Shown in pieces: positions 52,714 through 60,581 of a DNA stretch of 64,000 bases. The position numbers and the translations under genes are program-made. Location: positions 38,697,148 through 38,761,147 of the forward strand of contig NC_090706.1 in NCBI RefSeq assembly GCF_040954835.1, in the 5' to 3' direction. This DNA is from Lepisosteus oculatus. Lineage: Eukaryota > Chordata > Actinopteri > Semionotiformes > Lepisosteidae. The notes below the pieces were generated by a model. The model saw nothing but the letters and a program-made list of their open reading frames with translations, had not been told where the DNA came from and made no database searches. Each line of letters starts with the position of its first letter. The first letter of the stretch is position 1.

Positions 52714-53634
52714 ATGGAGAACCAACTGTGTAAGCTCTTTGTCGGCGGGCTGAACGTCCAGACCACGGACGACGGCCTCCGCAAGCACTTCGAGCAGTAC
52801 GGGCAGCTGACCGACTGCGTGGTGGTGCAGAACCAGCAGCTCAAGCGCTCCCGCTGCTTCGGCTTCGTCACCTACTCGACCCCCGAGGAGGCCGACGCCG
52901 CCATGGCGGCCAGGCCGCACGTCCTGGACGGCAACAACGTGGAGCTGAAGAGGGCCGTGGCGCGGGAGGACGCCGGCAAGCCCGAGGCCCTGGCCAAGGT
53001 GAAGAAGATCTTCATCGGGGGGCTGAAAGACGACGTGGAGGACGAGCACCTGTCCAGCTACTTCTCGCAGTTCGGCGCCATCGAGAAGGCCGAGGTGATC
53101 ACCGACAAGCAGACCGGCAAGAAGCGGGGCTTCGGCTTTGTCTACTTCGAGGACAACGACTCGGCGGACAAGGCCGTGGTGCTGAAGTACCACACCATCA
53201 ACGGGCACAAGGTGGAGGTGAAGAAGGCCCTGTCCAAGCAGGAGATGCAGTCGGCGGGGGCCCGGGGCGGCCGCGGGGGGCGAGGCGGGCGAGGGATGGG
53301 ACGCTCCCAAAATGGCTACGGCGGCGGCAGAGGAGGTGGGGGCTACAACAGCTATGGCGGCTACGGCGGCAGCGATGGCGGCTACGGGGGAGGCTACGGC
53401 GGCGGCTACAGCGGGGGCTACGGGGGCGGCTACGGCGACCAGATGGGCGGCTACGGTGGGGGCAACGGCTACAGTGACTTTGGCAGCGGCTACGGCCAGC
53501 AGTCCTCCGGCTACGGCCCCATGAAGGGGGGCAGCGGCTACTCGGGCCGGAGCAGCGCTCCTTACTCCCGGGGCGGCGGCGGAGGAGGAGGAGGGGGCGG
53601 CTACGGCCGGGGGGGCTACGGGGGCTCCTATTAA
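52714..53634 (+). CDS. hnrnpa0: Heterogeneous nuclear ribonucleoprotein A0, tandem copy 1, 306 aa, intronless
   Basis: One uninterrupted frame of 306 residues. RRM1 has KLFVGGL (7-13) and RCFGFVTY (47-54). RRM2 has KIFIGGL (98-104) and KRGFGFVYF (137-145). From about 182 the tail is Gly/Tyr/Ser-rich with RGG and YGG units. An M9-like import signal reads [20 protein letters not shown], followed by Y. Human HNRNPA0 has the same length, layout and lack of introns. The protein binds AU-rich elements in cytokine mRNAs and shuttles between nucleus and cytoplasm. Human Ser84, the MK2 site in LKRAVSRED, is Ala83 here (LKRAVARED). A second copy lies 7 kb downstream on the same strand. Residues 24-180 share a perfectly identical DNA tract with it. 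Confidence 0.97.
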
Positions 53635-54670
53635 AAACACAACAACCCAACAACAACAACAACCGGCCCCGCTTCACCCCAGCGGTGTGGGACGACACTG
53701 GGACTGAACCGCTTCACCTCGAAAGCCGGGAAGAAATCCGTTTTGTTTTGTAATTTTTTTTTCTTTCACTCTGGGCGGGGGGGGGAGATCCTATTGACCC
53801 CCCCCCCACCCACCCACAACTCCCGGGGAAAACCCTTTTCCACCGCCGTGATTTGGCGTCTGTGAGGATGCAGGGGCGAGAATCCCTCAGCTATCCCTAA
53901 GAAAGGAGAGACCTCTGTCCGGGCTGGTGTTCCTGACAGGTAGGAAGACACCCCCCCTCACCTCCGGCGAACCCGACACACCTGTGCAGGGGTTATCTTA
54001 GACTGAGCTCTGCAGATAGACTGTAGGGGGCCATGTGTCCACCACGCACGACTACATCCGGCAGTTAATCAGGACAACGAGTAGCTTAAAACTCCCTCTT
54101 TTTTAAAAAAAAAAACAACCCTGCGAACGGAGGAAGAGGTCTTGTTTGTTAGACTAGGTTTGACTGTTTTAGTTTGGACATCTGTTTTCTTTTTAATCGC
54201 CTGTATTTTAGCTTCAGACGTGTTTAACCCCCCCCACCACTCTTAGAGATTTTTAGTTCAACTACAGTGAACACTGTGGGCTGATTTCCAGTCTTAAGTC
54301 TTGCTCTGTCACCGTCGGCCATCGACTAGACGTGCTCAAATAGGTTTCCTTTCAGTCCACTTGTCCACTGTAGTTGACCACGTTCCTGAAAACCTACGAA
54401 GTTGAACCAGTGGGGTAACACGGGCAAGATAACTACTGTACAGTATGGTAATATTTCCCCGAAGTTCTCTGATCGCTTGTTAAACCTGCAAGTCCACGCC
54501 ATTACTATTTAAGTGCAGGGACATCAAGGGACAAAGGGGGGTTATTTCAGATAAATGCCTTTCATTGTATAATCCTGGTGCAGTCTATCATTAGTGTTGT
54601 TAAAGATGGTATACAACTATACAATTGTATGTTCGTTTTTTAAATAAAAACATTCATAAGCAAAACCCAG
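53635..54670 (+). other. 3' UTR of hnrnpa0 copy 1
   Basis: Unique sequence to the AATAAA at 54643-54648. It is unlike the 3' UTR of copy 2. A strong but off-end donor (atcag then gtaaga) lies at 54748/54749, beyond that signal, and could start a spliced longer 3' UTR. Confidence 0.6.
54643..54648 (+). terminator. Proximal polyadenylation signal of hnrnpa0 copy 1
   Basis: AATAAA in taaataaaaacattc, about 1.0 kb after the stop. Confidence 0.7.
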
Positions 54671-56617
54671 GTTATCAGTTTTATGTAGCACATAACCAAT
54701 ATTTATTTAGTGAGAATCTTAGAGAGGACGCCCGTTTAGATTTATCAGGTAAGACGTTTTCATGATTTTTCCCAGCAATCGGGTCACTGTTTTGTGTCAC
54801 TGAAGTTATATGGCTCTAATATCAAAACGCCCTGATTGGTGGACCCATGTGTCCATAAAGCAGTGTCTAATCTAATGTAAAGCACATTCACTGCTTGAGT
54901 GTGGTAGTTTAACATCCATTATGACGTTTCAAAGTGCAGTGGGGGGAAAACAACTAATTGTTGGTGAACTGGAAAGTTTACACGCTTATTGTATATAAAT
55001 CTAAATTCAGAAGGATGCATTTGAAACCTCAAACCTGGCATTTTACTAATGTAAAAATGACTGTTTTCTTATGGCTAAACAGTCCCACAGACCACAGTGT
55101 AGAAATTGAAAATGGTAGTGGGCTAAATAGTGCCATTAGTTTTAAAGTGCAATTGATTTTTTTTTTCCACGTTCCATGCCCTTGAAAATGTATAAATTTG
55201 TTCAACTTCACCCACTATTTCAAACTACTGCTACCGAGTTCATCTGCTCACAATGAACTATTGTGGGGGAGTGAGTCCTGAGATTTCCAAATTTGGTTTT
55301 ATCCAGAGCCTGATTTGCACTTTTTTTTTATTTGGATGGGTATCTGCCGTTTTGCTAGATGAGTCATTGATTTGTTGGGTGTAGCCAAATCTATTTACTT
55401 TAATTGCATGTTGGATTCTGCAGCAAAATTCACGGCTTTCAGTAGTTGCCCGTTACATTGGAAGTGCCACTGATGTACACAAGGGGTGTCTTGTATTGGA
55501 ATGTGGGACTCTGCTTGCTTAAATTCCGGAAATACTGGGTGACGCCGAGTCACTTGCGATTGAACACTACTCCCTTGCTGGGTTTTGCTGCAGAACCGGA
55601 TTGTCTACCCTAACAAAAGTGCTTAATTATTGGTACTACACCTTTAACTTTAAATTGAGTTTCTATGGTAAAAGTATATTTCAGTTAACATTGTAGGATT
55701 TCTTCTGTACATTATCCCATGGCATGTTCAGTGGGGAAAATGTCCTTGCATAATGCATGGGTGATTTTAAGTGACTTCTAACCTTATTTACCTGATTAAC
55801 TTTTAGGCCTATGTGAAGCGGCATTGGATGCACTTATCTTGGAGGAATGTGTGGATTAATGAGGGCTCATATTTATTTCTGATTCCTACATTTAGGTATT
55901 CGTATTGTAATCCTGGTACCTCAAAATAGCTGTAGAAGTTTGTTTATACAGGGACCCTGTTCAGTACCTGGGGTCGGTTGTGATAGGACTCTGTGAAAGT
56001 TTCTCATTAGGATCACACCGTGCAACACTAGGTATGTAAATCACTCTCTGTCTTCACCTACATGTTGGTTACAAGCACCATATAGATCTTTTTGGGTGTT
56101 ACAGTAAGTCTCTTAAAAGAATTATCAACATGGGGGACTGGGGTAAATGTTTTGAATTTCTTTAACCAATCAAGTCCTATTAAATTCTATGGCTTATGAA
56201 GTTTTGAACATAAAAGTAATTTTTTATAGAAGGGGGGGGAAAAAGCCACATTAATAGCACATAAAAGGCTTCCCTTGTTGGTTGAGCCACATTAGTGTAC
56301 TGTACCCATTATGTCTAGTAACTTAAGTCCTGTCGTCTTTTTAGGTTGTAATGCAACCATATATTACAAGGATAAAGGCAAAACAAGGTTTGTTACTACT
56401 TTATTACATCAACTAAATAGGTTGCCCATTAGAAACCTATTTATTTTAGTAACTTCGTGGTCTAGTTTAATTGCTTGAGACTGTCCTCTTTTTACCCTGG
56501 GTTGGGTGATCCTTGCTTGTGCGTCATGTGCTTGATATTGAGAAGTGAGCTCCTGTCGTTGGACCCCTTTTTGCTGTCCTTGAAAGTTGTGTAATGGGTT
56601 TTTCCCTTTGTCTCCAG
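54671..56617 (+). other. Spacer downstream of hnrnpa0 copy 1
   Basis: AT-rich, with no recognised ORF or repeat. It may be an intron of the extended transcript suggested by the next two entries, or plain intergenic DNA. Confidence 0.5.
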
Positions 56618-59564: not shown

Positions 59565-59572
59565 TGACGTCA
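59565..59572 (+). promoter_or_regulatory. CRE in the hnrnpa0 copy 2 promoter
   Basis: A palindromic TGACGTCA lies about 95 bp upstream of the start codon, followed directly by atgcaaaa (octamer-like). Copy 1 has the same palindrome about 104 bp before its ATG. No TATAAA is seen at copy 2. Confidence 0.6.
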
Positions 59573-59666
59573 ATGCAAAAACCGGCCTCCCGTCCTTTGA
59601 AAAAAGCAGGAAGACGGCGCTCTCGGCAGGCATTTTGAAATCGGCAGACAACCGGCAGCGGCGAAA

Positions 59667-60581
59667 ATGAAGAACCAACTGTGCAAGCTCTTCGTCGGCG
59701 GCCTGAACGTGGAGACCACGGACGACGGCCTCCGCCAGCACTTCGAGCAGTACGGGCAGCTGACCGACTGCGTGGTGGTGCAGAACCAGCAGCTCAAGCG
59801 CTCCCGCTGCTTCGGCTTCGTCACCTACTCGACCCCCGAGGAGGCCGACGCCGCCATGGCGGCCAGGCCGCACGTCCTGGACGGCAACAACGTGGAGCTG
59901 AAGAGGGCCGTGGCGCGGGAGGACGCCGGCAAGCCCGAGGCCCTGGCCAAGGTGAAGAAGATCTTCATCGGGGGGCTGAAAGACGACGTGGAGGACGAGC
60001 ACCTGTCCAGCTACTTCTCGCAGTTCGGCGCCATCGAGAAGGCCGAGGTGATCACCGACAAGCAGACCGGCAAGAAGCGGGGCTTCGGCTTTGTCTACTT
60101 CGAGGACAACGACTCGGCGGACAAGGCCGTGGTGCTGAAGTACCACACCATCAACGGGCACAAGGTGGAGGTGAAGAAGGCCCTGTCCAAGCAGGAGATG
60201 CAGTCGGCCGGAAGAGGCGGCCGGAGCGGGCGAGGGATGGGGCGGTCGCAAAATGGCTACGGCGGCGGCTACGGCGGCGGCAGGGGGGGTGGTGGCGGCG
60301 GCTACGGCGGCTATGGCGGGGGCTACGGGGGTAGCGACGGGGGCTACGGCGGCGGCTACGGGAGCCAGGGCGGCTACGGCGGCGGCTACGGCGACCAGAT
60401 GGACGGCTACGGCGGGGGCAACGGCTACAGTGACTTTGGCAGCGGCTACGGCCAGCAGTCCTCCGGCTACGGGGCCATGAAGGGGGGCGGCGGCTACTCG
60501 GGCCGGAGCAGCGCTCCTTACTCCCGGGGCGGCGGCGGCGGGGGCTACGGCCGGGGGGGCGGCGGCTACGGGGGGTATTAG
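59667..60581 (+). CDS. hnrnpa0: Heterogeneous nuclear ribonucleoprotein A0, tandem copy 2, 304 aa, intronless
   Basis: One open frame of 304 residues with the same two RRMs ([15 protein letters not shown] and [16 protein letters not shown]) and a Gly-rich tail richer in GGGYGGGY units. From 59737 to 60208 the DNA is identical base for base to 52784-53255 of copy 1. The 70 bp before it and the tail after it differ. Ala also replaces the MK2 target serine. In the M9-like signal the core reads GYGAMKGG, where copy 1 and hnRNP A1 have GPMKGG. It looks functional: own CRE, full frame and poly(A) signal. It is a duplicate rather than a retrocopy, since the family is intronless and the promoter motif is shared. 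Confidence 0.96.

Follow-up and report, generated by a model that had tools for sequence, protein, structure and literature searches.

Three tandem hnrnpa0-type genes

We analysed a stretch of 64,000 nucleotides from the gar Lepisosteus oculatus (C11:38697148-38761147, C11 being contig NC_090706.1; this whole stretch is the window), together with genome searches that covered the 1.2-Gb assembly in 813 contigs. The window holds two genes of the hnrnpa0 type, here called A and B, and a third, C, follows just outside it. The middle of the coding sequence (CDS) is the same at every base in all three, whereas both coding ends differ, a pattern very probably produced by gene conversion. A sequence-only reading of the window had described two tandem genes. 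Both are indeed intact frames, but the cluster really counts three members, as can be read directly from the assembly:

52714..53634, plus strand: hnrnpa0-type gene copy A, single-exon CDS, 306 aa, two RRM_1 stretches and a Gly-rich tail
59667..60581, plus strand: hnrnpa0-type gene copy B, single-exon CDS, 304 aa, two RRM_1 stretches
C11:38762997-38763899 (65850-66752 on the window scale): copy C, third tandem hnrnpa0-type gene, outside the window, intact 300-aa frame

Copy C starts 1.85 kb past the right end of the window and 5.3 kb after copy B. The three genes stand head to tail within ~14 kb of one 42.3-Mb contig, at a spacing of 6.2-7.0 kb, and the joined stretch that contains them all has 0 N in 80852 bp. 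Each has an open frame from ATG to stop (intron-free here refers to the CDS only). A DNA search of the genome with the CDS of A returned 6 matches, namely the 3 full copies, all on C11 (identity to A across the CDS: A 100%, B 90%, C 96%), and 3 short matches (81-91 bp) that hit parts of its tail. When the RRM region was searched as protein, with only the best candidates scored, 23 matches were listed; the three tandem copies were 98-100% identical to the query, and the remaining 20 of the 23 listed covered it partially and were at most 70% identical.

In a Pfam scan of A and B, each protein has its two RRM_1 stretches followed by the Gly-rich tail, and the best sequence match in the PDB is hnRNP A1 (E ~1e-73). 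The name hnrnpa0 rests on the call of the sequence-only reading, on the intron-free structure, a trait of HNRNPA0, and on residue matches to catfish hnRNPA0 and hnRNPA0a oligonucleotides, which agree with the core at most residues where they align. Two RNP1-like motifs are kept in each of the three proteins, as is an R-x3-PY stretch near the C-terminus (RSSAPY, RSSAPY and RSGAPY), which resembles a PY nuclear localisation signal. No relative of the protein was confirmed in scans of viral and prokaryote contigs.

An identical core between diverged coding ends

The segments of A and B that carry the argument are the following, and their limits are direct observations:

52714..52783, plus strand: 5' coding end of A, diverged, with 7 bases unlike B (4 silent changes)
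52784..53255, plus strand: tract of A identical to B, 472 bp, exact and maximal; its codons 25-180 are identical in C too
52784..53456, plus strand: tract of A identical to C, 673 bp; the C side is 65920-66592 on the window scale, outside the window
53256..53634, plus strand: Gly-rich tail of A, diverged from B (synonymous divergence, dS, ~0.49) and nearly identical to C up to 53525
59737..60208, plus strand: tract of B identical to A, exact; with C the identity begins earlier, at 59713 (496 bp, 59713-60208)

The perfect identity claimed earlier for A and B holds at 472 of 472 bases, and the adjoining base differs on both sides. Between A and C the resemblance reaches further: a single mismatch separates the 673-bp block from another 68 identical bases on its 3' side, and a second one separates it from 33 on its 5' side, so that near-identity extends over 52750-53525, or 776 bp with two mismatches. 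This span covers almost the entire RRM part and ~270 bases of A's 379-base Gly-rich tail. The sequence-only reading had put about eight differences in the roughly 70 bp before the A/B tract; the divergence is there, and the count is 7 in 70 coding bases. It was also right that the Gly-rich tails of A and B differ (32 silent bases plus replacements and indels) and that their untranslated regions (UTRs) lack similarity. In fact, a plus-strand comparison of the flanks of A and B found no match at E <= 1 in 3 kb upstream and, in 2.5 kb downstream, nothing better than an 18-bp word (E = 0.019). In all three pairs the main alignment ends within ~21 bp of the ends of the CDS, and UTRs and spacers are observed to be unalignable except for ~19 and ~17 bp beside the CDSs of A and C, plus dispersed repeats; blastn around the CDSs found no alignable duplicated segment beyond repeats. 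One upstream element common to A and C (67% over 140 bp) is taken to be a dispersed repeat, its A copy having 40 scored genome matches.

Two short elements precede the genes at similar distances from the start codon:

52603..52610, plus strand: TGACGTCA, 111 bp upstream of A's ATG
59565..59572, plus strand: TGACGTCA, 102 bp upstream of B's ATG

We label them, as an assumption, cAMP response element (CRE)-like. The joined 80.9 kb contain TGACGTCA 4 times in total, two of them being these; copy C has none within 300 bp upstream, where a half site at -25 is all there is. The differences between the promoters and between the UTRs suggest that near-identical proteins may be under distinct regulation.

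Could the cluster simply be young, the product of a recent segmental or retro-duplication whose ends diverged later? The tandem layout and the intron-free genes would suit such an origin. However, an alignment that ends so close to the CDS ends fits an old duplication and not a recent segmental copy, and the TGACGTCA that A and B keep at similar ATG distance hints that promoters were duplicated too. Moreover, a 5' silent divergence of ~0.3 or more and unalignable UTRs would be hard to reach while 104 silent sites stayed unchanged. We thus regard a recent duplication as highly improbable, and the argument made from the sequence alone, that a simple recent duplication could not leave an unmarked core with diverged ends on either side, stands.

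The silent-site contrast itself is plain. We counted silent changes in same-residue codons, Met and Trp excluded, and took codons 2-24 as the 5' end; this removed 22 columns with gaps, 10 with residue changes and 3 with Met or Trp from the tail, 3 with residue changes from the 5' end, and 2 with Met or Trp from the core. The core then has 0 silent-variable codons of 154 across A, B and C, whereas the 5' end has 7 of 20 (Fisher P 9e-8) and the tail 34 of 100 (P 3e-16). With Gly codons excluded the counts become 0 of 143, 6 of 17 (P 6e-7) and 8 of 47 (P 9e-6). Compared by segment, synonymous divergence between the copies is zero in the core, as the identity of all third codon positions implied (dS = 0 over 103.7 silent sites, 95% upper bound ~0.029), and high in both coding ends (pairwise dS 0.30-0.65 for the 5' end, 0.12-0.51 for the tail).

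The arrangement of the differences is just as uneven. The run of 156 identical codons shared by A and B was reached in 0 of 20000 shuffles of codon columns, and the same zero applies to the longest identical run of each of the pairs A/B, A/C and B/C. The 62 bases at which a single copy is the odd one out fall in 11 runs, and 0 of 20000 shuffles gave as few, as a mosaic of conversion tracts predicts. Over codons 181-252, B is the odd copy at every variable codon; in the first 24 codons the odd copy switches from B to C, to A, back to B and again to A.

Probable gene conversion and the alternatives

One way to keep three cores identical without copying is selection at the nucleotide level, whether on codon choice, on RNA structure or on an overlapping element. 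All three copies encode the same protein core, and codon choice in it is narrow, with 98.6% G or C at third positions (GC3) of non-Gly codons, compared with 85-95% for the 5' end and 74-82% for the tail. However, a null built from the codon usage of the three genes themselves still expects 44.8 mismatched codons of 156 between independent copies. A between-species view comes from oligonucleotides of channel catfish, the species of the CCO cell line that the source paper names. Passages of that paper (PMC10072109) give hnRNPA0 and hnRNPA0a oligonucleotides, four of which fall in the core; a fifth maps to the tail and was excluded. For the sequences in those passages, 10 of 18 complete same-residue codons differ silently from the core of the window (4/5, 3/4, 3/5 and 0/4 per oligonucleotide), and two of the four, from different genes, overlap, leaving 15 distinct codon positions. 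In the parts of the zebrafish, human and tilapia literature that were accessible, no further oligonucleotides were found. The genome has two further RRM exon pieces of hnRNPA type, L010 and L011, that differ at 41 of 53 same-residue codons. Because the catfish oligonucleotides differ from the core at more than half of the codons compared, its silent sites are not frozen; small as the sample is, they clearly can change between fish. The A/C identity also continues into the tail, where B is strongly diverged. Constraint on silent sites is therefore an unlikely explanation, to which we give very little weight.

GC-rich, near-identical stretches are prone to assembly or polishing errors, and three cores might have been collapsed or overwritten by one consensus. 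Yet the copies are 6.2-7.0 kb apart, with distinct flanks and no N, meaning that nothing was collapsed, and the pairwise tracts end at different places (472, 496 and 673 bp). Given ~30% silent divergence next door, reads from an equally diverged core would presumably map uniquely. An assembly artefact is thus unlikely as well, about as improbable in our judgement as constraint.

What fits best, and very probably applies here, is that these genes are old tandem duplicates between which ectopic (interlocus) gene conversion recently took place, at least twice. Homologous copies are closely linked in one genome (three within ~14 kb on C11), a tract of silent identity is bounded by diverged but still homologous sequence, and the pairwise relationships form a mosaic along the gene; silent constraint does not account for the identity, as far as a small catfish sample, with one of four oligonucleotides at 0/4, can tell. 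That conversion was the agent, that it was recent and that it took this number of events we infer from the pattern in the sequence. We envision that an old tandem duplication yielded three intron-free hnrnpa0-type genes, whose UTRs and spacers then drifted past recognition. Because they did, the CDS would have been left as the only stretch where the copies could still pair. Repair of a break between misaligned copies could then copy the middle of the CDS, and the coding ends, adjoining non-homologous DNA, would be reached less often and keep older silent differences. One such event may have joined A and C (673 bp exact, 776 bp with two mismatches), from RRM1 to most of the Gly-rich tail, and another may have joined B to A or C (472-496 bp, codons 17/25-180), from RRM1 to the end of RRM2. 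For intron-free genes, copying through RNA or cDNA is a possible alternative to conversion at the DNA level.

The sequence-only reading had likewise favoured recent gene conversion, limited to the RRM region. The first part is still the best reading; the limit is true only of the pairs that involve B, since A/C identity runs into the tail. The identity is thus part of a homogenisation among three genes that, for A and C, goes beyond the RRMs.

Several observations weigh against conversion. When only non-Gly, silent-capable, same-residue codons are shuffled, the A/B run of 149 is reached in 3 of 20000 shuffles (the A/C and B/C runs, on the same restricted set, in 0 of 20000). The 5' end offers only 20 usable codons, and the tail is repetitive, so slippage or misalignment may inflate its divergence. 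The silent-site control is small, 18 codons from four oligonucleotides and two catfish genes, and one of the oligonucleotides, an hnRNPA0a small interfering RNA, equals the core at 4 of 4 same-residue codons, a point in favour of constraint. The sequence comparison is of three copies of one assembly, with the catfish oligonucleotides standing in for other species. Finally, 3 of 15 other RRM exon pieces of the genome (L010, L022 and L024) reach a GC3 of 97-100%; these 15 come from the 20 non-tandem protein matches listed, three without a locus, L019 (which has a stop codon) and L026 being omitted. Passages on fugu protocadherins take raised GC3 as a sign of repeated conversion (PMC1852091). The high GC3 of the core is as GC-biased conversion predicts, yet it is not diagnostic because three control pieces are equally high; we dropped it as proof after seeing these control exons, and it is weak evidence for conversion.

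A broader proposal is that, ever since an ancient duplication among ray-finned fishes, concerted evolution has acted on the cluster repeatedly. This is tentative, and we would sooner doubt it than assume it. If it were true, conversion would maintain one identical RNA-binding core in three highly expressed regulators and leave their promoters, UTRs and Gly-rich tails free to specialise, and a small cluster of full-length single-exon genes would amount to one protein core under three regulatory programmes.

Neighbouring features and known parallels

Elsewhere in the window we noted the following:

157-378 and 14315-14581, minus strand: open frames, which we take to resemble casein kinase 1 alpha exons (14315-14581 had no Pfam match)
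17650-17760, 20344-20581, 49506-49616 and 63716-63781: a short dispersed repeat, in both orientations
20348-20535: an inverted pair of this repeat
25194-25312: a single sequence like 5S ribosomal RNA, 55 bits, above the Rfam gathering score; a gene or a 5S-derived repeat
43555-47300, minus strand: several coiled-coil-like exon frames, presumably akin to Spindly/SPDL1 (three were scanned with Pfam, without a match)
47347-47753: a minisatellite of 43-bp units, 9.4 copies, 92% alike, near the apparent minus-strand coiled-coil exons

The cluster offers a clean natural three-copy example of regional gene conversion. Its core cannot tell the copies apart, which calls for caution with orthology calls, quantitative PCR primers and guide RNAs placed there; taken alone, the core would imply a very recent duplication, which the flanks contradict. 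The search listings of open-licence papers showed no report of gene conversion or concerted evolution for hnrnpa0 or the hnRNP family.

Three hnRNPA0 genes in a fish have a counterpart in zebrafish, for which passages of PMC13265542 name the orthologues hnrnpa0a, hnrnpa0b and hnrnpa0l. In the gar the three form one cluster, which by itself may hint at a non-teleost ray-finned fish, while the residues shared with the catfish oligonucleotides indicate a fish; those zebrafish passages are silent on linkage and conversion. At 50% epiboly, according to a passage of PMC3118190, one of the zebrafish genes, hnrnpa0l, ranks among the ten transcripts of highest abundance.

Regional gene conversion in a cluster is a known kind of event. 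Among mammals, the pairs BMP8A/B, DDX19A/B and TUBG1/2 are described in the passages available from PMC2720389 as evolving in concert and, like the gar genes, they are linked duplicates (there <1 Mb apart), partly homogenised, with diverged parts adjoining. They differ in being intron-bearing genes whose tracts include introns, and persistence was shown there by orthologues. The protocadherin clusters of fugu and zebrafish, for which the available passages of PMC1852091 report regional gene conversion, resemble the gar cluster in several ways: a near-identical coding region (there >99%) lies beside a diverged one in tandem paralogues, the boundary is discrete, identity goes beyond protein constraint and GC3 is higher in the homogenised region. 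Protocadherins, according to the same passages, involve many variable exons of adhesion genes. The gar cluster, in contrast, consists of three complete single-exon genes for RNA-binding proteins, homogenised in the middle and diverged at both coding ends.

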